A stretch of DNA of 64,000 nt from Paratrimastix pyriformis. Lineage: Eukaryota; Preaxostyla; Paratrimastigidae. Every line of letters begins with the position of its first letter. The first letter of the stretch is position 1. Below the pieces are notes generated by a model, which was given only the letters and a program-made list of their open reading frames with translations, was not told the origin of the DNA and did not search any database. The stretch is from assembly GCA_027972325.1 (NCBI GenBank), contig JAPMOS010000086.1:12501-76500 (forward strand). The letters run 5' to 3'. Made by a program: the position numbers and the translations under genes. This document shows, in pieces, positions 2,041-52,800 of the stretch.

Positions 2041-2160
2041 TGGACGGAGCGCCGGGGCGGGCACCAGGCCAGGCGGGGCCCCGGTGGGGGTCGCCCCATC
2101 GAACGCGGTCGGCCAGGAGCCGAAGACGCAGGTGCGAACCCCCCTCGGACAGGCCCCGAC

Positions 2161-2928
2161 ATGATTTGGGTGGGGGCTGCCCTCCAGCCTCACCCCGATT
2201 TGGTGGGGCTGCGAATCCTGCGCTCACCTCGAGCTGGTGGCCGCGGCGGGCGAAGAGCTCCGGCAACGCGTCGTACATTGCGTCGCGGGAGCGTGGGGGC
2301 CCTAAGTCAAAACCATCGACAACGAGGCGCCCGCGTGGTGCTCAGGAAGATCAGGATGGGCAGGCAACAGCAGGCCACTGGCAAAAGGCTCGCCCCCAGC
2401 TTGCCCACCAGCCCCCAGCCAGTGGCATGGCACCCCAGCAGCACCGCAAGGCCGGGCCGACGGGAGAGCACCGGGGCGGTCGCCACAGGGAATGGGTCCG
2501 CCCAGACCGCAGCGCCGGCCCCCGTCATCGTTTACACCAACCCCCGGCAGTTGCGCCGCCGACCACGACGCCATCGCCCCGCAGCGGCTGCCGACCCCGT
2601 GATCGTCTACGCCAATCCCCGCGCCCCGCGGCACGCCGTCCCCCCGGCGCCATCACTCCGCAACAGTGGGAGCCCCCTCGTCGTATACGCCCCCAGCATC
2701 CGGCAGCGCCTCGAGGACAGCGGCGGGCGCCCCTCCCCTTCGTCACACTGGCCGTCGGGGCCAACAAGGGCCAACCCCAACCGGCATACTTTCAGCCTCA
2801 GCCCCAGCCCAGGGGCGGTGGAGGCCGCGCCTTTCGGGGCTAACCGCCCCGACAATCGGGAGGCCGGGGTCCCCCCCATGAGGGCCGCCACAACCAGGAC
2901 CCCGCTGGAGGCAGCGGAAGGGGCGTGA
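2161..2928 (+). CDS. ORF1-like protein of the LINE
   Basis: Open frame from an ATG at 2161 (the frame is open back to 859 through the minisatellite). It encodes about 255 residues rich in Arg, Pro and Ala. Three similar segments, PVIVYTNPRQLRRR, PVIVYANPRAPRH and PLVVYAPSIRQR, occur in order, so the protein contains an internal repeat of about 20-40 residues. I recognise no domain. Its basic character and position before the nuclease/RT frames fit an RNA-binding ORF1 of a LINE, but that is inference. Its stop TGA overlaps a GTG that opens the next frame. Confidence 0.4.
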   Translation: MIWVGAALQPHPDLVGLRILRSPRAGGRGGRRAPATRRTLRRGSVGALSQNHRQRGARVVLRKIRMGRQQQATGKRLAPSLPTSPQPVAWHPSSTARPGRRESTGAVATGNGSAQTAAPAPVIVYTNPRQLRRRPRRHRPAAAADPVIVYANPRAPRHAVPPAPSLRNSGSPLVVYAPSIRQRLEDSGGRPSPSSHWPSGPTRANPNRHTFSLSPSPGAVEAAPFGANRPDNREAGVPPMRAATTRTPLEAAEGA

Positions 2929-3752
2929 TCGAAAGTTCTCCGGCTTTCCCTCCTGCCCCGGGCGAGCCCCGCTTGTCTCCTGGCCTGTTCTCCCCTCCGC
3001 CGCAGGACCCACCACCCAACCCCCATTTAGCACTGGCGGGGTCGGGGCCCCTGGCGCCGGAGAGCCATGCCCCTATCCCCCCCGGCGACCCGGCCGCGGC
3101 CCGCGAGGACGACGATGCCCCGAGTGACGAGGCCCTCCAGCCCCGAGAGGCCGACGACCCGCGCGTCTGGGAAAGAGGCCCCTTCGTCTACATTCTGGTC
3201 GGGGCCCACGGACGGAGCTACGTGGGCGCTACCACAGACCCAACGCGGCGCCTCGCCCAACACAACGGGGCTCGACCGGGGGGGGCCCGGGCCACCCGAC
3301 AGAATCGCCCCTGGCGCCTGGTGGGACTGGCGGCCGGCCTCGCCTGCTGGCACGAGGCCATCGAGCTGGAGGCCGCTGTGAGGAACCCCGCAGCCGGCCA
3401 TGGGCAGCCGACATTCACCGGGAGCTCTCGGCCACTGGCAGCCTCGAGGTTCTCCGACAACTCGCACCGAGACGGGGAGCCCGCGCCTACCGCCACGACA
3501 TCCGGGGGCCGCTGGACTGAGCTCACGCAGGGGACCCGAACCGCCCCGAGGACCCGCGCCGACAAGGAGGAGGCCCAGGCGCGCTTCATCTGGGTGATGG
3601 CCGCGACCGACCCTGACGAGGCATCCGCCCGGCTGGAGGCAGGCCTGCGGCCGGAGGGGAGCCACCGTGTGAAGGGCCACACCAGGGGAAAGGCCACCCC
3701 ACCCCGCCGCCCCAACGGGAGATCGCTCTCCGCCAGGTCAAGGAGGCCATGA
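2925..3752 (+). CDS. SLX1-like GIY-YIG endonuclease frame of the LINE
   Basis: A 275-residue frame. Residues about 87-154 (3183-3386) form a GIY-YIG nuclease: FVYILVG (GIY strand), SYVGATTDPTRRLAQHNG (YIG strand with the conserved Arg and the QHN motif), a GGARATRQNRPWRLV segment typical of SLX1, and a downstream Glu (ELEAAV) at the place of the metal-binding Glu. The N-terminal part is Pro-rich. Known retroelement GIY-YIG domains belong to Penelope-like elements, not to LINE-type RTs. The stop at 3750-3752 overlaps an ATG (ATGA) that starts the RT frame. Frame entry at 2925 is a GTG, so real initiation here is uncertain; the domain may be translated as part of a longer product. Confidence 0.75.
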   Translation: MIESSPAFPPAPGEPRLSPGLFSPPPQDPPPNPHLALAGSGPLAPESHAPIPPGDPAAAREDDDAPSDEALQPREADDPRVWERGPFVYILVGAHGRSYVGATTDPTRRLAQHNGARPGGARATRQNRPWRLVGLAAGLACWHEAIELEAAVRNPAAGHGQPTFTGSSRPLAASRFSDNSHRDGEPAPTATTSGGRWTELTQGTRTAPRTRADKEEAQARFIWVMAATDPDEASARLEAGLRPEGSHRVKGHTRGKATPPRRPNGRSLSARSRRP

Positions 3753-6215
3753 CCCGGGACGGACTCAGCGTGCGCCGGCCCAGAGGCGACGCACCCGCCC
3801 TCTGGCGCGCGTGGGACAAGCTCCGCAAGGGGCGGGACGAGTCCCGCCGCGCAGCCGCCGCCTCGCAACTCCACCTTTTCTTCACCGACCGACGTCGACT
3901 CCACCGCCTCCTCCTGGCCCCGACACGGTGCACCTGCCCGATCGCCCCGGCGGAACTGCGGCGCCACCATCTGGCAGAGGCGGCGGCGACCCCACCACCC
4001 AGCACCAACCCAATCTGGCCGGAGCTGGCCCCACCTCCCCCGCTCGCCGAGACCTCCACCCCGGCCGAGCAGCCCTTCTCGGCCACCGAAATCGCCGAGG
4101 CCATCCACAACGCCGACCCCCACTCAGCCCCGGCGCCAGCCGACGCGGCCACGATCCGGGACATAAGACGACTGCTGGACGAAGGCGAGGAGCTGCGTGC
4201 CCGGGACGGCCCCCCCTCCCCGTTCATGGCCGCCCTGCTCCACCTCTTCAACATGTGCCTGGCCGAAGGAACAGTCCCGCGCAGCTGGGCCCGGGCCGTG
4301 GCCGTCCTCATCCACAAGAAGGGGGAAGCCGCCGGAGGAGATCCGGAGCTGGCGCCATGTGGTCCTCACGGCCCAACTCTCGCGAATCTACGGAGCCCTG
4401 CTCTCGCGCCGCCTCGAGGACTTCCTGCTCAGGGCCGGCCGGATCAGTGGGGCACAGGCGGGTTTCATCCGGGGCCAGGAGAGCCACTTCTCCGTGCTCC
4501 GCTTGCAGGCCTGGATCACCAGGGCCCGCCGTGAGCGCCCCCCTTTCGCGGGCGTACTTTTTCTCGATATCACCAATGCTTTCGGGACCCTGGGGCGGGA
4601 CGCCCTGGAGGGCAGTCTCCGGTGGGGTGGGGTCCCACCGACACTGCGGCGCGCCATCATGGGCACTTACCGCGACATTGAGATGTGCCTGCCCTTTGAA
4701 GGAGAAGCCGGCGCCCCCATCCCGCTGGGCCGTGGCACTCGGCAGGGGACCCCTTGAGTCCAACTGTCTTCATTCTCGCGCTGGAGCCGCTACTACATGC
4801 GCTCTCCCGGATCGATGGCCTCCTCGTTTTGGCATTTGCCGATGACCTAGCCATGGCCGCGCGCGACAAGGAGGCCCTGACCCGAGCCTTGCGAGTGATC
4901 GCGGAGTTCGGGGCCTGGTCGGGCCTTCACCTGAACCTCCCCAAGTGCGCCGCCCTGGTGGCCAGCCAGGGCCGCCAGTGCCCACCTGCGGACGTGGACA
5001 TCTGCGCGCCGGCCGGCCGGATCCCCCACTGGCCCTGGGCGGGACGTTCCGTTACCTTGGGGTCGAGGTGGGCTGGGAGCTGGACTCGACGCCGGCGCTG
5101 GAGGCCGCCCGGATCGAATTCGAAGCTCGCCTCACCGCCATCGGCACATCCCACCTCCCCCCGCTGGCCAAGATCGATACGCTGGCCTCCCTTGCCTTGC
5201 CCGTCCTGCAGCATGTCCTCGCTGTCTGCCCCGCCCCCAAGCTGGATGGCTGGGGTCCAACGGAGCATCCGGGACTCGTGCAACAACTGGCTATTGAACC
5301 CCCGAGAGATGGCGCCCACCCGGAAACGCTGGTGCCTGCCGGGCATGCCGGAGCTCCTGCTCTTCACTCCTGCCGCGCATGGGGCTGGGGGCCCCCGCTT
5401 GGACCGGCTCGAGGAGACCCTCAAACTCGGACTGATCGGCCGGATCCTGATACCACCGACCGACCCCGCGGCTCGCGAGCACTGGGCCGCGGCAGCAGTC
5501 CCCTGGCAGAGGAGTTCCGGCACCGAGAGCACCACGGGGACACGAGGCACCGGCCAACAACTGGGACCTGTGGACCTGGGTGGCCTGGTACGAAGACCGA
5601 CGGAAGATCCGCATCGGTCGCATAGCTGGACGATGGGCGGTCCAGCAGCGGACCATCCGGGCATCCAAGCTCTTTTCCCGAAAGGCACCGGAGCGCCACC
5701 CGGCCCTCAACAAGCTGACGGAGCTCCAGACGTACCTCTGCTGGCTGAGCACGGTCCCGCGAAATGCGGCGCTCCTCTTCACGGACGGATCGTTCCAACA
5801 AGGACAGGGCGGCGGCGCCGCGGCAGTGCTCATGACCCGAGACCGGACGACCGCGGCCGCCGTGCGCCTCCCACAGGCGCGGGGAACGGCGACGCGGAGC
5901 TAGCCGCGCTGGAGCTCGCCGCGGCCACCATCAAGTCCGCCCGGGCCGACGGGCGCCTCCTCCCACACCAGCCGGTGGCCATCTGTGCGGACAGCCAGTA
6001 TGCCCTGGGCGCTGCGGCGGGGTGGACGCGAATCCAGTTTGCGCACGCGCGGGTGCTGGCCCTCCGGGAGGCCCTCCAAGTGGCCAAGCCTGTGGTCCTC
6101 CGCTACGTCCCGGCGCACGTGGACCGGATCCCGGGGCCCTGGTGATCCCCTCCATCCCTGGCAACCAGCTGGCCGACCGCCTGGCTGAGGCGGCGCGCCT
6201 CGGGGACCACCAGAC
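3749..6215 (+). pseudogene. LINE reverse transcriptase and RNase H, frame-shifted
   Basis: Reading starts at an ATG that overlaps the previous stop. RT landmarks in order: FMAALLHLFNMCLAEGTVPRSW with HKKG (motifs 0-1, about 4225-4325), AQAGFIRG (4458), VLFLDITNAFGTL (4555), RGTRQGTP then LSPTVFILALEPLL (4733-4795), AFADDLAM (4832-4855) and FRYLGVEVG (5046-5075). RNase H follows: LLFTDGSF (about 5770), AELAALELAAA, ICADSQYAL (about 5980), YVPAHVD and GNQLADRLAEAA (about 6160), giving the D-E-D-D set. Coding jumps between frames at about 4350, 4755, 5020, 5260, 5580, 5890 and 6140. All catalytic residues remain, so decay is recent or the indels are artefacts. Confidence 0.8.
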
Positions 6216-6305
6216 AGAGGGGGCATCCAGGCCACATTCCCAACACAAGAGCTTTGCGGCCCAATCGGCCCCGCCCAGTGGCCCTCAGGCCCAGCCGAGT
6301 CCCCA

Positions 6306-7232
6306 TTGCCCTTCTCGCACAAATTCCTCACACGCTCACTGCTCACGACCCTGGCAAGGCTGGCCCACGAGGAGGAGGAGGCACGCGACTGGCTGGCGTG
6401 TCCGTACGCCTACCACCCACTTGAACCCATCTCGGCCCGGGTCAGCAACACCTGGTGGACCAGGCGCGGCGAGCCACTCTCCACGGTGCGCAAGCTGTGT
6501 GCAGCCAAGTGCCAGGCCTTCTGGGGGGTCAATCAGGTCAAGGCCCGGCTCGGGGGGGGCCGGGGATCCGCGCTCTGTCCATTCGGGTGCGGGACCGTGG
6601 AGACCCAGAGCCACCTCCTGGGGGGCTGCCGCCACTTCCGGCTATTCTATGTGAAGCGCCATGACCAGGTGCTCCGGGCCTTGGCCAGGGCCCTCACGGC
6701 CGCCGGCCTGAAGGTGGTCGTCCACGACTCGGCAGCCAACGCACGCAAGGCAACCCAGATCCCGGAGGAGCTCCAGGCGCGAATCCCGGCCCACCTGCGC
6801 CACCTCCGACCCGACCTGCTGGTGTGCCCCGGCGAGGGAGGGCCGGAGACCCCCACTGTCATCGAGCTGGCCGTCACCACTGCCGTGCGGGACGAGGACC
6901 TGGCAAAAGCGCGGGACGGGAAGCTCGCCCAGTATCGGGGCTACTGCCAGGCGGCGGGGTTCGACAACCGAGCCCTTCTCTTCGGGGCCACCGGGTGCAT
7001 CCCGGGACAGTCGGTTCGGGACCTCCTCCAGCTCGTCCCTGGCACTGAACACAAGACGCTCTGCGAGGCCCTGCGGAGGATCAGCGGGGACTTGACGCGG
7101 AGCATACTGGCACTGTTCCTCATGCGCGACAGTGACCGCAGGGACCGAGCCAGCACCCAGATCCACCGCCCGGCCGCAGCCCCAAGTGGATTTCTCCATC
7201 CCCCCCTACGACACCTTCACGGGTCGCCCTGA
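6306..7232 (+). CDS. C-terminal zinc motif and restriction-like endonuclease of the LINE
   Basis: An open 308-residue frame. Residues 91-108 are CPFGCGTVETQSHLLGGC (CX3CX7HX4C), followed by RHDQV, as in the C-terminal zinc domain of R2/NeSL/CRE-type LINEs. Residues 168-210 carry RPDLLV, then VIELAVTT, then KLAQYRGY. This is the PD-(D/E)XK-type restriction-like endonuclease (RLE) of R2-like elements, in the same order relative to the zinc motif. Together with the GIY-YIG domain this makes two nucleases in one element. The frame is intact to its stop and is followed by the 3' segment. Confidence 0.75.
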   Translation: MPFSHKFLTRSLLTTLARLAHEEEEARDWLACPYAYHPLEPISARVSNTWWTRRGEPLSTVRKLCAAKCQAFWGVNQVKARLGGGRGSALCPFGCGTVETQSHLLGGCRHFRLFYVKRHDQVLRALARALTAAGLKVVVHDSAANARKATQIPEELQARIPAHLRHLRPDLLVCPGEGGPETPTVIELAVTTAVRDEDLAKARDGKLAQYRGYCQAAGFDNRALLFGATGCIPGQSVRDLLQLVPGTEHKTLCEALRRISGDLTRSILALFLMRDSDRRDRASTQIHRPAAAPSGFLHPPLRHLHGSP

Positions 7233-7542
<310 letters not shown>

Positions 7543-7595
7543 GGGGTTATCTTCGCATTCAAAATCGCCATTTGAGTGCGCTCTTTCTGCAAGGA

Positions 7596-8303
7596 ATGAG
7601 CCCTTCAAACGATACCTCCGGCTCTCTCCATTGGCTTCGAAAAGCCATCAAGAAGCACGACAATGGTCTCGCTCGTCGTGTTCGCCACCACTATGAGAAA
7701 GATGCCGATGATCTTCGTTCCGACATCTGCTGTTTGGTCAATTTCATTGCTGAAACAGCTCCGAAGGAATTCGTTGTGAAATTGTCACGGATTTTTGAGA
7801 TGCTTTCACCGTCCACGATCAAAGAGATCGATTGCTACACAGCATTCAATTCCGACCCACATTACCGCTCGCTCAGAGATTCGAAATCGGAATCGGAATC
7901 CACTCCTTTGAATCCTCAGAAAACATCTCCGCAGCCTCCAGCATCAAAAAAAGCATCCAGCCCGCCACCATCAGATCATGTCACCACTCCGACTCAGAAG
8001 ACGGAGTCGGTGAAGAGCCCACCAAAGAGCCCACCAAAGCGCCCACCACCACCGCCACCACCACCGCCCAAACATTCCGCTCCACGTGAAGATGGCAAGC
8101 ACCACCCACCACCACAAACGTTCGCGCCGGCCCCCCTTGTGCCCCCGCCACCGTTTCCGTATGGACCAGTCGCCCTACACGCCGTCCCCGTGCAGTTCGC
8201 ATGCGCGCCATTCGAATTTGCTTCCGTGGAGCCGTTTGAGTATGAGGACTCTGGCCCACCGCAGCCGAGAGCACGCCGCCGCCGCCACCGTCGCCGGGGG
8301 TAG
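7596..8303 (+). CDS. Hypothetical proline-rich protein
   Basis: ATG at 7596, 235 residues. The N-terminal half (about residues 1-100) is a globular-looking helical region with LRKAIKKHDNGLARRVRHHY and CCLVNFIAETAPKEFVVKLS. The C-terminal half is low complexity: SPPKSPPKRPPPPPPPPP, then a Pro/His/Phe-rich stretch and a final Arg-rich RARRRRHRRRG. I recognise no family. The gene lies between the LINE and a truncated copy of it; the second insertion starts within about 20 bp of this stop codon. It could be a terminal exon, since the frame is open upstream into the (TG)n tract. Confidence 0.45.
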   Translation: MSPSNDTSGSLHWLRKAIKKHDNGLARRVRHHYEKDADDLRSDICCLVNFIAETAPKEFVVKLSRIFEMLSPSTIKEIDCYTAFNSDPHYRSLRDSKSESESTPLNPQKTSPQPPASKKASSPPPSDHVTTPTQKTESVKSPPKSPPKRPPPPPPPPPKHSAPREDGKHHPPPQTFAPAPLVPPPPFPYGPVALHAVPVQFACAPFEFASVEPFEYEDSGPPQPRARRRRHRRRG

Positions 8304-8319
8304 ACGACGGGGCGGCACT

Positions 8320-8471
8320 TCCCCCCCTACGATATTCACGGGTCGCCCTGATCCGCGCAGGGTGGGGACGAGCCACGACAGCGCGATAGGAGGAGGGCGC
8401 CGCTAGTAAAATAGTGCGCGCTTTCCTCTTAGCACTGTATACCCAACAGGCTCAAAGATCATCATCATCAT

Positions 8472-21564: not shown

Positions 21565-21836
21565 CTGACGCCGGGGTTGCATGCCCGAGAATTTTGGGGT
21601 TCTCTGTAGTGTTGTCGGTTTCTGCAAGTTGTCGGTTTGCAAAACACGCTGTTTGATGCCATGTTTTCCCTTTAGTTGAAATGGAACAAGAAGAAAGCGA
21701 AAACCTTGAGTAAGATTTCAATGCACGTCGCGGGAAGGTAACGGGGTGTTGACCCGTGGAAGAGAACCAAAAACCGGAGAGAAAACTGAACCCGACCGCA
21801 TCGCGTCCTAGGCGATGTGGCCGGGGGTGTGGTCCG

Positions 21837-23048
21837 ATGACGGCGAAAAATGACGATGTCGTGGTTCGAGGGCTGAGCGGCAGTTCTCAACTTTTCATTC
21901 AAGCGAGCAACGGCGCGAATGTCACCTTTGGCTTCGATCCCCCAATTCGCGCAGCCGAACTCAAGGAATTTATCCTCCATAACCTCGTCCCGAAGTGCCC
22001 CTCCCGTGGACGAGTCCTCGGACTTCTCCGGCTGCACGATTGTAGTCGGTACTCACTTGAAGAAGTATGCGCAGATCCAGCCCAATTTCGCGGATATGTC
22101 CTGCAGCTCATTCTTGAGCACGAGGAGCTGAGATTGGTTGACTTTTGCGCCAAAGTTGAAGAACTCCGCATTCGCCTCACAGCCGAAAGACCGTTGTCGC
22201 TTGGGACTTTGCAGGAAATCGTGTCGAGTTGCCGCATTCGCTGGACTTGGGCCTCCAACGCGATTGAAGGAAGCACGTACACATTGGCCGAAACTTCGGA
22301 CGCTTTGCTCTCCGAGATCGCAGTGCCTAGCAAACTGGGGTTTGTTCGCAACTATCCGGTATCTTGTGTTCCGATCCCCTTTTCGCATAGGGAATTTTTC
22401 GTCAACGCGATCGACCACGCAGCTGCAATCACTGCCCTGTTTCCGTTCGTACAGTCCCGTGGCCTGAGTTGTGATGACATTCGTTCACTCCATGGGATTC
22501 TGATGAAGCGTTCTTTCGAGCCTGACATCACTCCGGGTGCCTATCGGACCGTTGCGATTCGAGTCACAGGAACAAGATTTCAATTTCCTGAGGCTCTGGA
22601 AGTTCCCTCGCTCATGGACGAGTTCGCCGGGTGGTTGAATGCCCCGATTGAACCAAACAACAACGCAGGCGCTATTATCGAACGCGCGGCACTGGCGCAC
22701 TTGCGTTTTGTCACAATTCACCCCTTTTCGGATGGCAACGGACGGTCTCCTCCTTTCCCCATGTCTGCTGATTGATCTCTTCTTCCTGCCGCCATCAGAA
22801 TGGCCCGGCTCCTTCTCAATCTTGTTCTGATGCAAAACGGGCTTCTGCCCATTATCATTGAGCCTACCGTTCGGCCCGTGTACATGGCGGCAATCCAAGA
22901 CTACCAGCGCCAGAAGGACCGGCCCCCGCATGCGACGAAGGGCGAGGCCTTTATTCGCCTCGTTGCCGAGCTCGTTTACGAGCGGCTCCGGAACCACCTC
23001 GAAGGCGGTCCCGAGGTTCTGCCAGAGGGGGCCGCCGCAGGGGGGTGA
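21837..23048 (+). CDS. Fic-domain AMPylase (FICD/HYPE-like)
   Basis: Two exons, 21837-22744 and 22799-23048, with a 54-bp intron (GTCTCC...CAG); about 385 residues. The intron splits the catalytic motif: HPFSDGNGR is completed by MARLLLN, giving the full HPFx(D/E)GNGRxxR signature with its His. SNAIEGS about 110 residues earlier matches the inhibitory helix (S/T)xxxE(G/N), so this is a self-inhibited Fic protein that should transfer AMP from ATP to protein hydroxyls and may also remove it. The N-terminal region (about 150 residues, QLFIQASNGANVTFGFDPPI) is not recognised. The ATG at 21837 was chosen over an in-frame GTG at 21756. It converges on the F-box/LRR gene at 23419. The mirrored copy at 35618-36851 is broken. 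Confidence 0.9.
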
Positions 23049-23418
23049 AGCCTCTCTGTGTTGTTCCGACAGCGCGATCTTCCGGGGGAACAGTGAGTGT
23101 CTTCTTGCGTGGCCTCTTCCCCCCTTTTCTTGCGCCTCGAATGGAAACAATAGAACGGCGTAGAACCAGACCGCCCCCACCCTGCCCAACCCGAGAAGGA
23201 CGGCCGAGGCACTGGATGACATCGTCAATGTATTTCGAACAGCACACACACAGCACACATACACAACACACAACACACCACAACACACCACACGCACACA
23301 CACAACACACCACAACACACGCACACGCACACACAACACACGCACACATGAACACTCGAGGCGGACAGGATGCCAACGCACAAACAGACATCCGGGGATC
23401 GGCTTCCGGCCGAAGATT
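23049..23418. other. CA-rich spacer between convergent genes
   Basis: Intergenic between the Fic stop and the F-box/LRR stop. 23240-23350 is an irregular ACACAC / CAACACAC simple repeat. Mirrored at 35281-35617 in arm B, where the repeat is shorter. Confidence 0.7.
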
Positions 23419-25869
23419 TCACTCGCCAAGTTGTTTATCGGACAGGAAGGCGTCTGGGAATCGCCCATTGAGCTGCTCCCACCAGGGGTCGTACACACCC
23501 GAGATGCAGTTGATGGGAGGTTCGGACTCTCCCTCGCCCTCGCCCTGCCCGACCAGTTCGAACCGCTTCAGGTCCGAGTCCAACGGGGCACTGAGCTCCT
23601 CCAGATGCGGGCAGTCGAGCACCAGCGAGCGCAGCTTCACCGCATCTTTGTCGTCAGATGCCGTGTGGATGGTGAGATGGCTGAGGCGCGGGCAGGCCAG
23701 CACCATGTCAGCCGAGGGGATCCCGTACAACGTGAGGCTGACCAGCCGGGGCAGTCGACCCAGGGCGGCAGCCACCTCGGGCCAGGCCTCCGGATACAGC
23801 CGCTTGCTCGACAGGGAGACGCACTGCAGATGGCTCCCGTGCCGGGTCAGGATGGCCAGCAGACTGGCTGTCAGGACGGCCAGCAGACTGGAGGGCATCG
23901 GCTCCCACGAAGCCCACCTGGAGAGACGCTCAAGGCACAGGCTGCGGAGGGGCGGGTCGGTCCCCTCGGCCAGCGCAAATGAGGATGCGCCTTGTGCGGG
24001 GACCAACAGCGCGACAAGGGCCGGACAGGCGAGGGTCAGCTGCACCCGAGGAGGCACCTCCAGCCGGAGTGCCCGGAGCCCTGGTGCCTCCACTCGCAGC
24101 TCGGCGGGTCCTTGTGGCCCCTCGAAACTGACCCGCCCGTCCAACGCCTCGAGCTGCTCCGGGAGCCGCAGCACAACAGCGGGCGAGTCGGTGGTCGACG
24201 GAAAGTGCAAGTCGATCGACTGCAGGGTCGTCAGCGAGGGGCACCCGGCGAAGATCTGGGTGAGCACCGCCTGGGAGGCCGTCAAATCGGACATGAAAAA
24301 GGACAGCTGGGCCGGCACAGATAGCACCAGCTGGGACAAGTAACGCATCCGGGGCGCTCTGGTCCCCACCTGGGCCAGCCAGGCCGGGCCCAGGCGAAGC
24401 CAGTGGCCACTCACATCCACCAGCTCGGGCATGGAAGCGATGCGGTCCAGGTTCTGCCCATTAAGAGACGTCAGGGAGCGCAGATGGGGACAGTCCATGA
24501 CAAGCTCGTAGGGATTTGAATCACCAGCATAGGGGAGAGACAGATTCTCGAGGGCGGGGCAGGCCAGGGTCAGCGTGCAAGAACCGGAAAGGGAGAAATC
24601 GAGTTCCAGCTTGCGGAGAGTGCGACTGCTCACAGCACACGCGTGCTCTTTCGGGTCTGATATGCCGCGGAGGGAGAGGCACTCCAGCTGATTCTCCAGC
24701 AAGCCGGGCGGCAGGGCGGCAAGAACGGTCGACAGCGGGCAATCCCCAACGTGCGACAGGGCCAACTCGAGGCAGGTCAGGTGGGTCAGTCCACCCAGCG
24801 GCGCGGCCAGGAAGCCCCTATCAGGGGAGGGGCCCGTTAAGGAGGAGAGCGAGAGTGACCGCAGGGTGTCCCGGTAGGCTGTGATCACCGGGGTGGAGAG
24901 GTTCACCGATGCGTCTGAGCTTGAGGCGAGGGACTCAAGGCGGCAGAGACCCGCCTCGTCCAGGCAATCGATGTGATCGTGTGTGCGAAACTGGGTCAGA
25001 TGTTGGGCAACGGGCCGCAGGCGGTCGGCAGTGTCCCAGCCCCCGACCTCGAGTCGCTCCAAGGAGTGGAGTCGAGAAACGAGAGATCCCGGACTGTTGC
25101 CATCCAGGTACACATCAGGGATGATGAGTTCCTTGAGGGTGCCCGAGAGGGGCGCGAGGACCATGAAATCCAGTCCAAGGCGAGAAATCTGCACGTCTTG
25201 GGTGAGGTGCAGCACGCGAAGCTTGGGGCAGAAGGTGGCCAGGGCTTGGAACATCCCCACCTCGAGCGGCCTGGCCTCCAAAAAGTGGAACTCCTCGAGC
25301 CCGGGCAGATAAAACAGAATCCGCCAGATGGCGGGCCAAAAGGTGCCCGCGCCGGGGATCTTCAGATAGGCCAGCTGGGTGTGGTCCTCAAAGGCCTCGT
25401 CCACCCAGCATCGTTCATCCTCATCCTCATCATCGACCAGAGGGAGGCCACACCCGACGACGGAGGGGTGGTGCCGGTTGTGCGGGGGCAGGGTCAATCG
25501 GACGAGGCCCTTGCAGGGGCCCACGATGGCCGCCAGGGCATCGGCGGGCAGGCAGGGCGCCAGGCAGTACTCGTCTTCACTGTTGAACCGGTCGTACTCG
25601 TGGTTGTCGAGGAGGGGTTCGGGGCCCATGAAGGACAGCTCCCGTGGAGCGCCCCGAATGGCCGTGCGGATGCCGTGGGTCAGGCCGATCAGCTGACAGT
25701 AGACCTGCAGCTGGAAGGGGGCCGCATCAATGACGGCCAGCAACAACTCGCGGGGCAACTGTCCCAGCGGGAGGATGGACCGCTTTTGCCTTCTCCTCTT
25801 TCCCATCACCAACGAACAAGACCATTTCAATGCTGTTGATACCGGTGCCGGATTCAAAGAGGTGGGCAT
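23419..25869 (-). CDS. F-box/LRR protein, arm A copy
   Basis: ATG at 25869, 816 residues. Residues after about 30 read LPLGQLPRELLLAVIDAAPF...LIGLTHGIRTAIRG, an F-box-like helix set, followed by about 20 irregular leucine-rich repeats (LVRLTLPPH, LEEFHFLEA, LRVLHLTQ, LKELIIPDV, LERLEVGG, LRSLSLSSL, LECLSLRG, LVSLTLYG) and an acidic GEGEGESE segment near the end. Likely role: substrate-recognition subunit of an SCF ubiquitin ligase (family inference). It is nearly identical to 32815-35280. The 45-bp intron seen there is replaced here by an in-frame segment (MGKRRRQK) created by a 21-nt local inversion, so this copy reads through without splicing. Confidence 0.75.
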   Translation of the reverse strand: MPTSLNPAPVSTALKWSCSLVMGKRRRQKRSILPLGQLPRELLLAVIDAAPFQLQVYCQLIGLTHGIRTAIRGAPRELSFMGPEPLLDNHEYDRFNSEDEYCLAPCLPADALAAIVGPCKGLVRLTLPPHNRHHPSVVGCGLPLVDDEDEDERCWVDEAFEDHTQLAYLKIPGAGTFWPAIWRILFYLPGLEEFHFLEARPLEVGMFQALATFCPKLRVLHLTQDVQISRLGLDFMVLAPLSGTLKELIIPDVYLDGNSPGSLVSRLHSLERLEVGGWDTADRLRPVAQHLTQFRTHDHIDCLDEAGLCRLESLASSSDASVNLSTPVITAYRDTLRSLSLSSLTGPSPDRGFLAAPLGGLTHLTCLELALSHVGDCPLSTVLAALPPGLLENQLECLSLRGISDPKEHACAVSSRTLRKLELDFSLSGSCTLTLACPALENLSLPYAGDSNPYELVMDCPHLRSLTSLNGQNLDRIASMPELVDVSGHWLRLGPAWLAQVGTRAPRMRYLSQLVLSVPAQLSFFMSDLTASQAVLTQIFAGCPSLTTLQSIDLHFPSTTDSPAVVLRLPEQLEALDGRVSFEGPQGPAELRVEAPGLRALRLEVPPRVQLTLACPALVALLVPAQGASSFALAEGTDPPLRSLCLERLSRWASWEPMPSSLLAVLTASLLAILTRHGSHLQCVSLSSKRLYPEAWPEVAAALGRLPRLVSLTLYGIPSADMVLACPRLSHLTIHTASDDKDAVKLRSLVLDCPHLEELSAPLDSDLKRFELVGQGEGEGESEPPINCISGVYDPWWEQLNGRFPDAFLSDKQLGE

Positions 25870-26580
25870 CTTCCCGCTGCACCGCGGCGCTGGTTCAAAA
25901 GAGATGGTCAAAGGAGTGGCACAACAATGGAGGGGAAACCTTTCCGGGTTCGCTGTTGTTGCCACTTTTCCTGCGCTCGGGCTGTGCCGGGGACGAGAGG
26001 GCAACCGCCGGAGGAAAAAAAGCGCTCGAAAGCAGCAAGATGGTTGCTCGCGAAAAGAAGTCGTGATTTTTTAATCTGACACGCACAATGAAACCCCCGT
26101 CATGCCGCCCGGGCCGGCGGCAAAATGATCGTGCCTCACGGGTGATCAGGCGGTGCATTTCGCAGGCACCAGGGATCCGACGGAAGGGCAGGGAGGGACG
26201 CCATGACAGATACAAGTTGGGACGCCTCGCAAGTGCTGCCGCCACCCCACCACCGCTGACCGATGAGGCGGGCTCCCACCTCCGCAGGATTAGGTGTTCT
26301 GTGCCAAGCGCAGGTCTGCTCGATCCGAAATATATTGGTCCGCACATCAGCCGTTTATATTGATCAATTCGCATCTCACCAGCGCAGGGGTGCACCGTTG
26401 GCACCACGCCGTCGGCATTCCAGAGCTCTCCCGGGGTGCTGAGCAGGGGCGGGCTGCGCACCAAACGAGAAAACCGCCATGGCAGCAGATCGGAAACCCC
26501 AAAAATGAGCGAAACGAGAGCAGGATGGGGGGCGGCACGCGTGGACAGGGGGCACGGACCCAAAGCAGCAGCAGCGGACC
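25870..26580. other. Spacer between F-box/LRR and kinase genes (arm A)
   Basis: No gene is seen. The two flanking genes lie in tandem on the minus strand, so this should hold the F-box/LRR promoter and the kinase 3' flank. It is conserved with 32115-32814 of arm B; a few indels separate the two. Confidence 0.5.
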
Positions 26581-32114: not shown

Positions 32115-32814
32115 GGTCCGCTGCTGCTGCTTTGGGCCCGTGCCCCCTGTCCCCGCGTGCCGCCCCCCATCCTGCTCTCGTTTCGCTCATTTTTGGGGTT
32201 TCCGATCTGCTGCCATGGCGGTTTTCTCGTTTGGTGCGCAGCCCTGCTCAGCACCCCGGGAGAGCTCTGGAATGCCGACGGCGTGGTGCCAACGGTGCAC
32301 CCCTGCGCTGGTGAGATGCGAAATGATCAATAAAAACAACGGCTGATGTGCGGGCCAATATATTTCGGATCGAGCAGACCTGGCACAGAGAACACCTAAA
32401 GTTGTGGAGGTGGGAGCCTCATCGGTCAGCGGTGGTGGGGTGGCGGCAGCACTTGCGAGGCGTCCCAGCCTGAATCTGTCATGACGTCCCTCCCTGCCCT
32501 TCCGTCGGATCCCTGGTGCTTGCGAAATGCACCGCCTGATCACCCGTGAGGCACGATCATTCTTCCACCGCCCGGGCGGCATGATGGGGGTTTCATTGTG
32601 CGTGTCAGATTAAAAAATCACGACTTCTTTTCGCGAGCAACCATCTTGCTGCTTTCGAGCGCTTTTTTTCCTCCGGCGGTTGCCCTCTCGTCCCCGGCAC
32701 AGCCCGAGCGCAGGAAAAGTGGCAACAACAGCGAACCCGGAAAGGTTTCCCCTCCATTGTTGTGCCACTCCTTTGACCATCTCTTTTGAACCAGCGCCGC
32801 GGTGCAGCGGGAAG
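32115..32814. other. Spacer upstream of F-box/LRR gene (arm B)
   Basis: Mirrors 25870-26580. No gene seen. It should contain the promoter of the plus-strand F-box/LRR gene. Its near identity to arm A shows that the duplication included regulatory DNA. Confidence 0.5.
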
Positions 32815-35280
32815 ATGCCCACCTCTTTGAATCCGGCACCGGTATCAACAGCATTGAAATGGTCTTGTTCGTTGGTGAGTGGGTGTTCGTTATCCTTCTC
32901 CTCTTTCCCATCACAACAGAAGCAGTCCACCCTCCCGCTGGGACAGTTGCCCCGCGAGTTGTTGCTGGCCGTCATTGATGCGGCCCCCTTCCAGCTGCAG
33001 GCCTACTGCCAGCTGATCGGCCTGACCCACGGCATCCGCACGGCCATCCGGGGCGCTCCACGGGAGCTGTCCTTCATGGGCCCCAAACCCCTCCTCGACA
33101 ACCACGAGTACGACCGGTTCAACAGTGAAGACGAATACTGCCTGGCGCCCTGCCTGCCTGCCGATGCCCTGGCGGCCATTGTGGGCCCCTGCAAGGGCCT
33201 CGTCCGATTGACCCTGCCACCACACAACCGGCACCACCCCTCTGTCCTCGGGTGTGGCCTCCCTCTGGTCGAGGATGAGGATGAGGATGAACGCTGCTGG
33301 GTGGACGAGGCCTTTGAGGACCACACCCAGCTGGCCTATCTGAAGATCCCCGGCGCGGGCACCTTTTGGCCCGCCATCTGGCGGATTCTGTTTTATCTGC
33401 CCGGGCTCGAGGAGTTCCACTTTTTGGAGGCCAGGCCGCTCGAGGTGGGGATGTTCCAAGCCCTGGCCACCTTCTGCCCCAAGCTTCGCGTGCTCCGCCT
33501 CACCCAAGACGTGCAGATTTCTCGTCTTGGGCTGGATTTCATGGTCCTCGCGGCCCTCTCGGGCACCCTCAAGGAACTCATCATCCCTGATGTGTACCTG
33601 GATGGCAACAGTCCGGGATCTCTCGTTTCTCGACTCCACTCCTTGGAGCGACTCGAGGTCGGGGGCTGGGACACGGTCGACCGCCTGCGACCCGTTGCCC
33701 AACATCTGACCCAGTTTCGCACTCACGATCAAATCGATTGCCTGGACGAGGCGGGTCTCTGCCGCCTTGAGTCCCTCGCCTCAAGCTCAGACGCATCGGT
33801 GAACCTCTCCACCCCGGTGATCACAGCCTACCGGGACACCCTGCGGTCACTCTCGCTCTCCTCCTTAACGGGCCCCTCCCCTGATAGGGGCTTCCTGGCC
33901 GCGCCGCTGGGTGGACTGACCCACCTGACCTGCCTCGAGTTGGACCTGCCGCGCGTCGAGGATTGCTCGCTGTCGACCGTTCTTGCCGCCCTGCCGCCCG
34001 GCTTGCTGGAGAATCAGCTGGAGTGCCTCTCCCTCCGCGGCATATCAGACCCGAAAGAGCACGCGTGTGCTGTGAGCAGTCGCACTCTCCGCAAGATGGA
34101 ACTCGATTTCTCCCTTCCCGGTTCTTGCACGCTGACCCTGGCCTGCCCCGCCCTCGAGAATCTGGCTCTCCCTTTTGGTGATTCAAATCCCTACGAGCTT
34201 GTCATGGACTGTCCCCATCTGCGCTTCCTGACGTCTCTTAATGGGCAGAACCTGGACCGCATCGCTCCCATGCCCGAGCTGGTGTCCGTGAGTGGCCACT
34301 GGCTACGCCTGGACCCGGCCTGGCTGGCCCAGCTGGGGACCAGAGCGCCCCGGATGCGCCACCTGTCCCAGCTGGTGCTCTCTGTGCTGCCCCAGCTGTC
34401 CTTTTTCATGTCCGATTTGACGGCCTCCCAGGCGGTGCTCACCCAAATCTTCGCCGGGTGCCCCTCGCTGACGACCTTGCAGTCGATCGACTTGCACTTT
34501 CCGTCGACCACCGACTCGCCCGCTGTTGTGCTGCGGCTCCCGGAGCAGCTCGAGGCGTGGGACGGGCGGGTCAGTTTCGAGGGGCCACAGGGACCCGCCG
34601 AGCTGCGGTTGGAGGCACCAGGGCTCCGGGTGCTCCGTCTGGAGGTGCCTCCCCAGGTGCAGCTGACCCTCGCCTGTCCGACCCTTGTCGCGCTGTTGGT
34701 CCCCGCACAAGGCGCATCCTCATTTGCGCTGGCCGAGGGGACCGACCCGCCCCTCCGCAGCCTGTGCCTTGAGTGCCCCCCCATGTGGGCTACGTGGGAG
34801 CCGATGCCCTCCAGTCTGCTGGCCGTCCTGACAGCCAGTCTGCTGGCCATCCTGACCCGGCACGGGAGCCATCTGCAGTGCGTCTCCCTGTCGAGCAAGC
34901 GGCTGTCTCCGGAGGTCTGGCCCGAGGTGGCTGCCGCCCTGGGTCGACTGCCCCGGCTGGTCAGCCTCACGTTGTACGGGATCCCCTCGGCTGACATGGT
35001 GCTGGCCTGTCCGCGCCTCAGCCATCTCACCATCCACACGGCATCTGACAAAGATGCGGTGAAGCTGCGCTCGCTGGTGCTCGACTGCCCGCATCTGGAG
35101 GAGCTCAGTGCCCCGTTGGACTCGGACCTGAAGCGGTTCGAACTGGTCGGGCAGGGCGAGGGCGAGGGAGAGTCCGAACCTCCCATCAACTGCATCTCGG
35201 GTGTGTACGACCCCTGGTGGGAGCAGCTCAATGGGCGATTCCCAGACGCCTTCCTGTCCGATAAACAACTTGGCGAGTGA
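32815..35280 (+). CDS. F-box/LRR protein, arm B copy
   Basis: ATG at 32815 (an upstream TTG-initiated extension was rejected). A 45-bp intron, 32875-32919 (GTGAGT...ACAACAG), is likely; it is in frame, so a retained intron would add 15 residues. Spliced product about 806 residues. The sequence has the same F-box-like start (LPRELLLAVIDAAPF) and leucine-rich repeats as 23419-25869, with scattered substitutions (for example LELDLPRVEDCSLS versus LELALSHVGDCPLS), so the copies have begun to diverge while both stay open. The GTGAGT donor is the only canonical one among the introns I placed. Expected role as for arm A. Confidence 0.75.
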   Translation: MPTSLNPAPVSTALKWSCSLVSGCSLSFSSFPSQQKQSTLPLGQLPRELLLAVIDAAPFQLQAYCQLIGLTHGIRTAIRGAPRELSFMGPKPLLDNHEYDRFNSEDEYCLAPCLPADALAAIVGPCKGLVRLTLPPHNRHHPSVLGCGLPLVEDEDEDERCWVDEAFEDHTQLAYLKIPGAGTFWPAIWRILFYLPGLEEFHFLEARPLEVGMFQALATFCPKLRVLRLTQDVQISRLGLDFMVLAALSGTLKELIIPDVYLDGNSPGSLVSRLHSLERLEVGGWDTVDRLRPVAQHLTQFRTHDQIDCLDEAGLCRLESLASSSDASVNLSTPVITAYRDTLRSLSLSSLTGPSPDRGFLAAPLGGLTHLTCLELDLPRVEDCSLSTVLAALPPGLLENQLECLSLRGISDPKEHACAVSSRTLRKMELDFSLPGSCTLTLACPALENLALPFGDSNPYELVMDCPHLRFLTSLNGQNLDRIAPMPELVSVSGHWLRLDPAWLAQLGTRAPRMRHLSQLVLSVLPQLSFFMSDLTASQAVLTQIFAGCPSLTTLQSIDLHFPSTTDSPAVVLRLPEQLEAWDGRVSFEGPQGPAELRLEAPGLRVLRLEVPPQVQLTLACPTLVALLVPAQGASSFALAEGTDPPLRSLCLECPPMWATWEPMPSSLLAVLTASLLAILTRHGSHLQCVSLSSKRLSPEVWPEVAAALGRLPRLVSLTLYGIPSADMVLACPRLSHLTIHTASDKDAVKLRSLVLDCPHLEELSAPLDSDLKRFELVGQGEGEGESEPPINCISGVYDPWWEQLNGRFPDAFLSDKQLGE

Positions 35281-35617
35281 AATCTTCGGCCGGAAGCCGA
35301 TCCCCGGATGTCTGTTTGTGCGTTGGCATCCTGTCCGCCTCGAGTGTTCATGTGTGCGTGTGTTGTGTGTGCGTGTGGTGTGTTGTGGTGTGTTGTGTGT
35401 TGTGTATGTGTGCTGTGTGTGTGCTGTTCGAAATACATTGACGATGTCATCCAGTGCCTCGGCCGTCCTTCTCGGGTTGGGCAGGGTGGGGGCGGTCTGG
35501 TTCTACGCCGTTCTATTGTTTCCATTCGAGGCGCAAGAAAAAGGGGGAAGAGGCCACGCAAGAAGACACTCACTGTTCCCCCGGAAGATCGCGCTGTCGG
35601 AACAACACAGAGAGGCT
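35281..35617. other. Spacer between convergent genes (arm B)
   Basis: Mirror of 23049-23418 with a shorter GTGTGT/GTTGTGTG repeat (about 35350-35425). Confidence 0.7.
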
Positions 35618-36851
35618 TCACCCCCGGCCTGCGGCGGCCCCCTCTGGCAGAACCTCGGGACCGCCTTCGAGGTGGTTCCGGAGCCGCTCGTAAACGAGCT
35701 CGGCAACGAGGCGAATAAAGGCCTCGCCCTTCGTCGCATGTGGCTGGTCCCCAGGGGGCTGGTGCCCAGGGTCCTTATGGCGCTGGTAGTCTTGGATTGC
35801 CGCCATGTACACGGGCCGAATGGTAGGCTCAATGATAATGGGCAGAAGCCCGTTTTGCATCAGAACAAGATTGAGAAGGAGCCGGGCCATTCTGATGGCG
35901 GCAGGAAGAAGAGATCAATCAGCAGAAATGGGGAAACGAGGAGACCGTCCGTTGCCATCCGAGAAGGGGTGAATTGTGACAAAACGCAAGTGCGCCAGTG
36001 CCGCACGTTCGATAATAGCGCCTGCGTTGTTGTTTGGTTCAATCGGGGCATTCAACCACCTGGCGAACTCGTCCATGAGCGAGGGAACTTCCAGAGCCTC
36101 AGGAAATTGAAATCTGGTTCCTGTGACTCGAATCGCAACGGTCCGATAAGCACCCGGTGTGATGTCAGGCTCGAAAGAACGCTTCATCAGAATCCCATGG
36201 AGTGAACGAATGTCATCACAACTCAGGCCACGGGACTGTACGAACGGAAACAGGGCAGTGATTGCAGCTGCGTGGTCGATCGCGTTGACGAAAAATTCCC
36301 TATGCGGAAAGGGGATCGGAACAAGAGAACAGATCGTTGTGAACAAACCCCAGTTTGCTAGGAGCTGCGATCTCGGAGAGCAAAGCGTCCGAAGTTTCGG
36401 CCAATGTGTACGTGCTTCCTTCAATCGCGTTGGAGGCCCAAGTCCAGCGAATGCGGCAACTCGACACGATTTCCTGCAAAGTCCCAAGCGACAACGGTCT
36501 TTCGGCTGTGAGGCGAATGCGGAGTTCTTCAACTTTGGCGCAAAAGTCAACCAATCTCAGCTCCTCGTGCTCAAGAATGAGCTGCAGGACATATCCGCGA
36601 AATTGGGCTGGATCTGCGCATACTTCTTCAAGTGAGTACCGACTACAATCGTGCAGCCGGAGAAGTCCGAGGACTCGTCCACGGGAGGGGCACTTCGGGA
36701 CGAGGTTATGGAGGATAAATTCCTTGAGTTCGGCTGCGCGAATTGGGGGATCGAAGCCAAAGGTGACATTCGCGCCGTTGCTCGCTTGAATGAAAAGTTG
36801 AGAACTGCCGCTCAGCCCTCGAACCACGACATCGTCATTTTTCGCCGTCAT
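35618..36851 (-). pseudogene. Fic-domain copy broken by a frameshift
   Basis: ATG at 36851, matching the intact gene at 21837-23048. The inhibitory motif SNAIEGS and the catalytic HPFSDGNGR...MARLLLN remain, and the 54-bp intron is conserved. Near 36310-36345 the sequence is 2 bp shorter than in arm A after several nearby substitutions, so the frame shifts after SKLGFVHND and stops soon after. Exon 2 also carries an in-frame gain (KDPGHQPPGDQPHATKG versus KDRPPHATKG). Unless an unseen splice avoids the shift, only arm A makes a full Fic protein. Confidence 0.75.
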
Positions 36852-49808: not shown

Positions 49809-52800
49809 TTCGGATTGCGTTGATTGTTCTCCCCAACACGGAGTCTCTCTTTTTTATTTGCCGCGAATGGCGCCTGCTGTGGGACTTTGAGAGTCTCTCC
49901 ATTCACCCCTTATTTAGTCTGTGTTTTCTTCCACGCCTCTCGAACCATCACCAAACGACTTGCAACTTGCCCAAACAATCGCCCTCATCTCACTTCGTCC
50001 CACCATCTCCCTGCTTTCCACGACAGTTTTGACTTCGAGTGCATCTGGGAATGATGTCAGCGCACATCAGGCCCTGCTGAGCTCCAGTGCCGCGCTTTTT
50101 GCCCCCGGCACTGCTCTCCCTCCGTCTCCTCTCTCCCACGCGAACCCTGCGTCGGATATGAAGCTCCTTTGCGAGGCGCGTGATGCCCTTCCGGGATCTC
50201 CCTTCACGCCCGCCGCTCAGGTTGCCTCGATCCTGGCGCTCCTCCCATTGACTCGCTCGACGATGCTCCTGTTCCGTGGCCCACAGGAGTTGGTGAGCTT
50301 TGAGGCGACCCCATTGCCCCCTGACGCAGGTTTGCCTCCCCGGTTCTCCTTTTTGCTGGTGGCTTATCCTCCTCCTTTCCAGATATTCCCCTTGCGACGA
50401 CCATCCAACACCCTGCCTTTATTCCTCTGGCGGCGCCCACTCTGTCCCAACTCGTGGCTGTCTCCCGTGCCTTGTTTGCCATCCTTGAGCGTGCCCTGGC
50501 CGCTGCGCCAGGCTCTCCCGCGCTTGATCTGGCCGCCCTTGGTGCCTATTGTGCCGCGACCATCCAGGGTGCCACGGCTTCCTGGGCCCGCTTGACGCTG
50601 GTCTGTTTGTGAATGAGATGGGATGTCTCTCCCCCCACACGCGGCTGCGCTCTGGGTCAGTGTGACTCATGATGTTGGGTTCTGCTTCATTCGACGTCTC
50701 GCAGATGGTGACCTCCGTGCGTCAAGCCGCCGATCTGCTGACCCGTTTCTGCGCCGACCCGCAGGCCATGATCGACAGCACATCCACTGCCGATCCGATT
50801 TACTTCTCTCCGAGCTGCAGCACCTCTGTGCTTCCCAAAAACGCAAAGATGTGCTGGATGTTCTCCGGCCAGTGCTCCGCCACGGCCACCATGGGCCTGA
50901 CCCTGTTCCGGGTTTCGCCTGTCTACCGTCAGGCCGTCCAGGATTGCGCCAATGCGGCCGCGCCCTTCTGGCCCCCATCGAAGCGTGGGCGCAACTTGTA
51001 CGAGATCATGTGGCCCACCCCCGACGAGCAGGACGTCAACCCGTATGTGTCCTGGGGCTTTGAGGTGGACTACAGCCTGTTCTGCTTCGAGTACGCCATG
51101 GCCCGGTTCTGGCAGTCCTTGGGGGTCTGTCCGATGTTCCCCTGCTATCAACAAGACCGCATCCATCGCCCGGCATCCATCCCGCCCGCCCCTGGCATGC
51201 ATGATTTCTCATCTTTGTTTTTGCTCTTCTTTGACAGCTCAACCCCGAGGTCATGATTGGCCATCGGCTTGGCGACTACGTTTCCTCGGTTCTTTCGGGC
51301 ATCCTGACCCTGTCCGATTGCTTCCATCTGCTCATCGTCCGCGACCACATGCACGAGCAATCCCGGCCCGGCACCATCTCCATGATCTTCACCAATGCCG
51401 ATAAGGCCGTCGCAGCCATCCGCGAGTTGCACCTGGAGGACTCCATCTCGTTGGCCGATGTGGATGGGCCCGGGTTGGTTGCCCTGGCCGGCCACTCTCG
51501 GGAGGACGTCGAAAAGGTGGCCCGTCACATTGGCGTCCGGTTCAAGCACCGCGGCACCCTGGCCTTCAACTCTCCCTGCATCACCCCGGAGCTTCTCGAC
51601 GAGTTTGAGAAGTTCTCCGCCAGTGGTGCTGTCCACTATGGGGTCCCCTCCATGAAGGTCGGCAACCCCATGACCGGCCAGGTGATCTTGCCCGGCGACC
51701 GTTCCATGTCAGACGGGCACTTCTGGCGGGTGCACCTGCGCGAGCCCAACCAGTTCTACCCCTGCCTGGCTCAGGCTCAGAAGGTCCGTTCACGTTCTGC
51801 CCGCAAATGTGCTCTCGCCCACCGTGGGCTCCTCGGGCTCATCCATTCGTTTGCTTCTTCTTGCACTTGTTAGCACGACTGCTCGATCTTCCTCGAGGTC
51901 GGGCCTCACCCCGGCCTGCTCGGGCTGGGTCTCCACTGCCCCGGCAGCGAGCAGTACCGTTGGATTGCCTCCTGCGACGACGGGTTCTCCGAGTGGGACG
52001 GCGCCATGAACGCCATCGGCAACATGTCCGTCGAGTTGCCCCCGGGCGCCCTGCAGCTCCCCGGCTGCGAGAAGGCCGCCATGTCGGGCGCCCGGGCCCG
52101 GCTGGGCCCCCTGGCCGATGAGCTGAGCCGCGTCATGACCCCGATTCTGGGCGCGACCCCCGTTGCCGCACCGGTGGTCGAGGGTCCCAATGCCGAGACC
52201 GTCCTGCCCCTGCTGACGGAGATGATGCGCGAACTGCTGCACCTGGACGAGTCCGCCCCGCTGGACCCCGAGAAGCCCATGTCTGACCTGGGCCTCACCT
52301 CGATGCTTGCCCTGCGCCTGAAGGAGCGCCTGTCCCGGCGCTTCCACATTGCCAACGTCCCGGCCACGCTGGCCTTTGAGTATCCGACCCTGTCGGCCCT
52401 GTGCCAGTACGTTTGCCAGGCCGCCCTCGGCCAGTCCGTGTCGGCAGGTTCCGCCGCCCCGGGCCACAACAAGCAGTCCGTGGAGGCCGTGACCTCGCAG
52501 CTGGTGGTGATGCTGCAGGAGCTGCTGCACATTGACCCCAAGGTGCAGCTGGACCTGCACCAGCCCATGTCCGAGATGGGTCTGACCTCGATGCTCGGCC
52601 TGCGCCTGAAGGAGCGCCTGCAGCGCCACTTCCACATTGCCAACGTGCCCTCCACGGTGGCCTTCGAGTTCCCCACGATCTCCTCGCTGGCCCAGTTCAT
52701 TGCCTCGGGCGGGTCGACCGACGTCCGCCCGATCTGCACCTCGGCTGGTGCCACGGGCCCCGCCCAGGCCAGCCACTCGGTGGCCATCATTGGCATCGGG

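Follow-up and report, generated by a model that had tools for sequence, protein, structure and literature searches.

We analysed a 64,000-nucleotide (nt) stretch of the Paratrimastix pyriformis genome (contig JAPMOS010000086.1, positions 12,501 to 76,500 of the forward strand), hereafter the window, which is part of contig C481 of the genome searched and contains a long interspersed nuclear element (LINE) with two different DNA nucleases, a GIY-YIG domain resembling SLX1 and an R2-type restriction-like endonuclease (RLE). The presence of both nucleases at this locus was confirmed as a real observation and no artefact. Homology to other genomic copies placed the element on the forward strand at 2092..7352, with one copy (L034) aligning from 2092/2110 and seven more from 2477-2981 on. 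The first-pass annotation of this DNA, which had given the span as 2925..7232, located the parts at or near the coordinates reported here; its start was too far downstream, as homology reaches 2092-2110, and the end lies at 7352. A GC-rich minisatellite of ~15-base units (841-2080) flanks the 5' side of the LINE and is probably outside the element, because copy L034 has different sequence there.

Between 3183 and 7231 the domains follow one another in the order GIY-YIG, LINE-type reverse transcriptase (RT), RNase H, CCHC zinc motif and R2-type RLE. Upstream of these, a probable proline-rich N-terminal part of the open reading frame (ORF) was read from the sequence at 2355..2928, with three VxVYxNP-like repeats and a first ATG that we guess to lie near 2355; in copy L040 the 3' portion of this part runs on into the GIY-YIG domain within a frame of 1278 amino acids (aa). 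The GIY-YIG domain itself (3183..3389) matched Pfam PF01541 at E 1.5e-10, over the curated cut-off, and kept the motif residues Y, Y, R and E in an alignment of four families. The RT (4341..4960; DITNAF at 4566, FADD at 4835) is frameshifted, so that its RVT_1 matches are spread over two frames, 4341-4751 (E 3e-5, under the cut-off) and 4745-4960 (E 3.6e-12, over the cut-off). RNase H (5763..6195, end approximate) was weak in the window (E 0.035), and in L035, a less broken copy, Pfam reported it at E 3.2e-11 and the RT at E 4.9e-23. A CCHC motif of the form C-x3-C-x7-H-x4-C was read from the sequence at 6576..6629, its first C, H and last C being invariant across three families, and the RLE core, RPD ... 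E ... K-x3-Y, lies at 6807..6935 within a domain extending to about 7231. The element ends in a 120-base 3' untranslated region common to the copies (7233..7352, ending GGCTCAAAGATCATCA), which abuts a (TG)n microsatellite of 187 bases (7353..7539, detected by TRF) that serves as integration target and 3' flank. The GIY-YIG domain just upstream of a LINE-type RT, the RNase H downstream of it, the C-terminal zinc motif with RPD/E/K..Y RLE and the conserved 3' segment at 7233-7352, all of which the first-pass annotation had named, were recovered. The window copy is not intact, since separate frames hold the GIY-YIG domain, the RT, the RNase H and the RLE, and the continuity of the domains therefore had to be shown in other copies.

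A search of the genome (56 Mb, 495 contigs) gave at least 43 matches to the 3' part of the LINE, with the best 40 of 68 candidates scored. Twenty copies, the window copy included, were fetched with their 5' sides, and BLAST pieces of 150 bases or less were left out of the copy alignments. The copies showed the traits of a LINE, namely a common 3' end, 5' edges ranging from 2110 to 6509 in the 19 copies besides that of the window, and dispersed sites. The GIY-YIG domain was present in all nine copies whose homology extends 5' of it, and the remaining 11 of the 20 all begin downstream, at 4104 or later. The frames of individual copies joined the domains pairwise or further: 820 aa with GIY-YIG and RT in L037, GIY-YIG and RT again in the 1278 aa frame of L040, and 1141 aa with RT, RNase H and the start of the RLE in L035.

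Diverged relatives were found by six-frame searches of the genome. One of them, L051 (C484), has GIY-YIG, RT, RNase H, CCHC and the RLE motif in a single open frame of 1712 aa, which passes the 5' end of the fetched stretch and measures 1744 aa in the genome search; a second, L052 (C179), has all five domains in a single open frame of 1519 aa. In a third, L056 (C476), GIY-YIG and RT share a 667 aa frame that runs off either end of a 2 kb stretch. Pfam reported the GIY-YIG domain (E 7.2e-11) and the RT of L051, and the RT and RNase H of L052, in which the GIY-YIG domain scored 21.4 bits, slightly under the curated cut-off of 22.6; the RNase H of L051 was not reported by Pfam and was identified by alignment to L052. 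The domain set thus forms one unit in four diverged families (five domains in three of them, GIY-YIG and RT in the fourth, a partial piece), and the protein is N-[Pro-rich]-GIY-YIG(SLX1-like)-RT-RNase H-CCHC-RLE-C. That the sequence at 2925-3752 might be an unrelated neighbour of the LINE was suggested by the different frames of GIY-YIG and RT in the window, and the first-pass annotation had made its reading depend on whether one element carries both nucleases or GIY-less versions with the same RT and 3' end exist. The same order at different loci in the nine of 20 copies reaching the domain, and its position inside the open frames of two further families (L051, L052), refute the neighbour explanation, which we now consider extremely improbable; both nucleases belong to one element, and every copy without GIY-YIG among the 20 starts 3' of it. 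We also rejected an artefact of the kind reported for the shrimp element ASDE, in which GIY-YIG and a non-long-terminal-repeat (non-LTR) RT were once assembled together and, according to the authors themselves, the two parts are not contiguous (PMC3849965), because here genomic copies from several families hold the pieces without a break between them.

The nearest solved relatives of the GIY-YIG domain were SLX1 chains (6seh at E 8e-11 for the window; E 1.1e-10 for L051), followed by UPF0213 proteins (PDB), and the PDB name of SLX1 describes it as a structure-specific endonuclease. We take the GIY-YIG active site to consist of two Tyr, an Arg and a Glu, and these residues were kept in all four families, as they are in SLX1; the LINE domain differs from SLX1 in being fused to RT and RLE. 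In a survey of the superfamily, Slx1 types lack the C-terminal Asn, and the Penelope types form a cluster of their own (PMC1564403). Coding changes were compared between copies and families. The GIY-YIG domains of L052 and L053 differed by 10 synonymous and 0 replacement changes, and the ratio of replacement to synonymous rates (dN/dS) was 0.26 between the L052 and L056 families (0.27 in the RT), 0.14 between L037 and L050 (0.08 in the RT) and 0.36 between L051 and L052. These codon comparisons show mostly silent change in the GIY-YIG domain, as in the RT, indicative of purifying selection on it. Elsewhere in the genome, a stand-alone GIY-YIG ORF of 254 aa (L057, G000:C410:151000-152300) has a GC content of 36%, as against 62% in the window, and more than 30 other places score the same or nearly the same, most with frames up to 254 aa (L057 alone was read). 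This type of ORF perhaps derives from an endogenous virus-like element and is separate from the domain of the LINE.

No Pfam or NCBIfam model reported the RLE in these LINE proteins, and the domain was identified by profile comparison. A profile built from the C-termini of three families matched R2 in the PDB (8gh6; E 1.2e-5 over the entire chain and 0.0024 in its best stretch). By hhalign it also matched three other RLE LINE proteins over their C-termini at a probability of 97%, and these C-termini themselves match R2 at E 3.9e-32. The residues PD and K-x3-Y were invariant in all three families, and the acidic position was E, E and D. The proteins therefore have the C-terminal CCHC motif and PD..(D/E)..K endonuclease by which RLE LINEs are recognised. 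With their motif residues conserved, both nucleases look alive.

The solved relatives of the RT were mainly R2 and L1 ORF2 proteins, with R2 the best (E 8.5e-28 with L035). Protein searches for relatives (best 8000 candidates scored each; eukaryotic genome collections were outside their scope) gave nine RT proteins, and two RT trees of 17 and 14 rows were built, three long-branch rows having been dropped in the second; neither included Dualen, NeSL, CRE or Penelope rows. The four GIY-YIG families formed one RT clade (support 98/97 with 17 rows, 98/98 with 14), which joined the RLE proteins P0012 and P0004 (90/87 and 84/85) apart from L1 and the LINEs with an apurinic-type endonuclease (APE). 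P0004, which carries an RLE motif and in which RNase H precedes the RT, lies next to the GIY-YIG clade in the tree and is, we guess, a Utopia element. In the nine RT proteins (P0003-P0007, P0012-P0015) Pfam gave no GIY-YIG match at E ≤ 1, and scans of viral contigs with P0011 and P0010 gave no relative. Among solved chains the RT pairs with R2 and L1, and in a tree lacking a Penelope-like reference it falls among LINEs; on the best trees the RTs of these LINEs appear nearer to RLE LINEs, with a wider placement that is not firm (84/85), and forcing the GIY-YIG clade together with the APE rows and L1 was 4.2 log units worse and was not rejected by the approximately unbiased (AU) test (p-AU 0.183).

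This last result bears on a possible descent from a Dualen/RandI-type element in which the APE was replaced by GIY-YIG, an origin compatible with any mechanism. Dualen/RandI elements likewise have two nucleases per LINE, one of them an RLE paired with APE, and RNase H has been reported from them (PMC4640811). A position close to APE LINEs is also compatible with the AU test. The partner nuclease is GIY-YIG here, no APE domain was matched in P0001, P0002, P0008 and P0009 (Pfam, E ≤ 1), and the best trees, without Dualen rows, place the RTs with RLE LINEs. Dualen/RandI is set apart here by description, and we regard such a descent as possible and rather doubtful. A separate open LINE frame of 1426 aa, in which an RT and stretches resembling RNase H and CCHC were made out by eye, with a long C-terminal part and a long RT branch, lies directly upstream of a truncated GIY-YIG LINE copy in L041 (1-4283, turned to the LINE strand).

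The insertion target of the window family was read from both flanks. Of the 30 loci that were cut out, 25 had exact 3' ends (30 ends in all) and 5 had none; (TG)≥5 followed within 14 bases after 28 of these ends, and the other two lay in TG-rich imperfect repeats. On the 5' side, a (TG/CA)≥8 run was found within 15 nt of the LINE edge in 10 of 19 copies (window left out) and, in a further 6 of the 19, directly upstream of a leader of ~345-374 nt described below; in L048 it lay upstream of a shortened leader, and L034 and L043 had no such run within 450 nt of the 5' side. Two (TG/CA)≥8 runs occurred in the 55.4 kb of window behind 8600. The repeats at 3' ends and 5' sides against this sparse background indicate that the family inserts into (TG)n. 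It therefore differs from members of the R2 clade, which insert into 28S ribosomal DNA (rDNA). In single copies, (GAT)n lay 3' of L052 and (AGC)n 5' of L051, a hint that the microsatellite used differs from family to family. Microsatellite targeting is not new here, because the targets of most RLE LINEs are repeats, rRNA genes and microsatellites among them (PMC4640811).

Besides the AU comparison, several observations weigh against the overall explanation of the two-nuclease LINE that is set out below. In four of the nine window-family copies with GIY-YIG (L035, L036, L038, L047) the match was split or lowered in identity although the DNA was 98-99% identical, and the domain is therefore frame-broken there. 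The dN/dS of the domain reached 0.61 in two comparisons, L052-L055, in which L055 carries a frameshift, and L051-L037, a highly diverged pair. A structure predicted for the window domain without an alignment gave no usable fold (pLDDT 38.6), and the likeness to SLX1 was established on the GIY-YIG domain. About ten residues differ inside the RNase H between L051 and its sister L054, as from a compensated frameshift. A search with the L052 protein (best 33 of 3012 candidates scored, rows assembled into 31 loci) gave a GIY-YIG match at the 5' side in 18 of 31 loci, one of them (C325) by a weak match under the cut-off, and none in the other 13. Nine of these 13 begin at query residue 156 or later. 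Truncation explains three of the 13, and probably further ones: the LINE part at C333:239395 starts directly behind the GIY-YIG position and is joined there to the leader, so that this locus was rejected as a GIY-less sister family; and at C49 and C31 the leader lies within 13 bases of the LINE part. At C462, another of the 13, the leader abuts the LINE in the opposite orientation. The L052-type lineage may nevertheless include GIY-less members.

We propose that nicking of the target and priming of reverse transcription fall to the RLE and that the SLX1-like domain makes the second-strand cut on the branched intermediate, an explanation that we judge slightly more likely than not. RLE LINEs nick one strand and then prime cDNA, and the second-strand cut of R2 is poor on the product of target-primed reverse transcription (TPRT) and good on an open 4-way junction, in the manner of a Holliday-junction resolvase (PMC6895275). 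In the scheme proposed here, the R2-type CCHC-RLE would recognise and nick the microsatellite (first strand), the RT would prime cDNA on the nicked repeat by TPRT, and RNase H would strip the RNA. The cDNA end could then pair with an upstream repeat to give a branched (4-way or flap) intermediate, at which the GIY-YIG domain, whose cellular SLX1 relatives cut branched DNA, would cleave the second strand; one protein would then combine a nickase specific for the target with a resolvase specific for DNA structure. In a TG array the cDNA end and displaced strands can pair with any unit, so that branched intermediates are to be expected and a built-in branch nuclease would be suitable. On the other hand, a second nuclease would not be needed, because the RLE of R2 is taken to make both cuts. 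Such a split of the work between the strands is a plausible idea and, among the explanations weighed, the likeliest one, with the chances about evenly balanced. The fuller claim, that a LINE clade captured a cellular-type Holliday/flap resolvase, with RLE for the first strand, GIY-YIG for the second and active sites that can be switched off separately, is put forward tentatively, as somewhat less probable than not.

Two other roles for the GIY-YIG domain were weighed against this proposal. It could nick the first strand, the role suggested for it in Penelope-like elements, with the RLE mainly binding the target or cutting the second strand; the GIY-YIG motif residues are kept, and GIY-YIG mutants of a Penelope-like element lose DNA cleavage (PMC11167929). 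The RLE motif residues, however, are kept in all three families, the nearest relative of the domain is SLX1, and the (TG)n specificity fits RLE LINEs, which mostly target repeats (PMC4640811), making a nickase role for GIY-YIG unlikely. Alternatively, the domain could be an accessory of repair or recombination that clears away flaps or branched by-products once insertion is done and has no part in the second-strand cut. Microsatellites are able to form branched structures, and both the residence of the copies inside microsatellites and the SLX1-like type of the domain would agree with such a role. An accessory role would allow loss, yet GIY-YIG is kept in 18 of 31 L052-type loci (one weak) and in the nine of 20 window-family copies reaching it; we consider this explanation improbable as well.

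The element was compared with known systems. LINEs of the R2/NeSL/Utopia type are alike in their R2-related RT, C-terminal CCHC and RLE and repeat-targeted insertion, whereas the LINE described here has an N-terminal SLX1-like GIY-YIG domain and an RNase H between RT and RLE, and the window family targets (TG)n and not rDNA or U2. Penelope-like elements also combine GIY-YIG and RT in one ORF, with GIY-YIG at the N-terminus in Naiad and Chlamys, and to our knowledge they are without an RLE. In canonical Penelope-like elements, GIY-YIG lies C-terminal of a telomerase-like RT (PMC11167929), whereas here the RT is LINE-type. Oomycete Utopia is likewise an RLE LINE that acquired RNase H (PMC4640811), which in that case lies upstream of the RT and is not accompanied by GIY-YIG. 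The Repbase classification assigns RLE and APE to canonical non-LTR elements and GIY-YIG to Penelope-like ones (PMC5753468). The first-pass annotation knew of no LINE clade that pairs GIY-YIG with RLE, and we likewise found none described, nor any other GIY-YIG LINE clade, among the best-ranked papers of the open-access literature searched (Repbase Reports, most subscription journals and preprints lie outside this scope). Within that literature, the element is a LINE variant from a lineage with a nuclease pairing not found described. It would mean that LINEs are able to take up a third kind of nuclease besides APE and RLE, and that the retroelements with GIY-YIG extend beyond Penelope-like ones. 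Second-strand cutting by LINEs is a long-standing gap, and an SLX1-like nuclease beside an RLE would make it possible to uncouple the two cuts through changes in single active sites.

A 363-nt leader sequence directly after (TG)n was found in L032, L033, L037, L039, L042, L045, L048 (shortened) and L059, with 41 matches in the genome. It carries box A-like (TGGCTCAGTGG) and box B-like (GTTCAATCC) strings and is joined by a constant end (..GGGCTTACTTTCG) to varied internal points of GIY-YIG LINEs of two lineages. The junctions lie at 2477 (with some 14 extra bases), 4104, 5156 and 6324 (four copies) in window coordinates and, in L052-type loci, at residue 98 and, to within 13 bases, at residues 170 and 829; the combination with junction 6324 has spread. 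ARAGORN reported no tRNA in L039, the first 88 nt of the L039 leader folded no better than shuffles (36 of 200 folded at least as well), and none of 13 Rfam matches in L039, L037 and L033 reached the family gathering score, so that a tRNA-like nature is indicated by the box A and box B strings alone. The joining of the leader at several LINE positions suggests that the RT of the element jumps between templates, and the joins look like template jumping onto a small RNA, the birth of SINE-like (short interspersed nuclear) elements. The open L052 frame also has a leader copy ~1.1 kb to its 5' side (C179:32800), and given this copy the leader may instead be the LINE's own 5' end.

Behind the (TG)n of the window LINE, a unit at 7540-8465 contains a proline- and arginine-rich ORF of 235 aa and ends in a second copy of the LINE 3' end (8322..8465, forward strand, 87-89% identical), followed by (TG)n. 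Its body had at least 44 matches in the genome at 67-100% identity (best 40 of 47 candidates scored), and units of this type likewise lie shortly behind LINE copies at C338 and C495; the unit is perhaps a non-autonomous partner of the LINE. Further along the window, the same frames occur twice in opposite orientation at 22488-26070 and 32614-36202, an inverted duplication of several kb that is adjoined by a Fic-domain frame at 21753-22772. Two very long open frames at 51874-63998 encode a modular type I polyketide synthase with KS, AT, DH, KR, methyltransferase and carrier domains.

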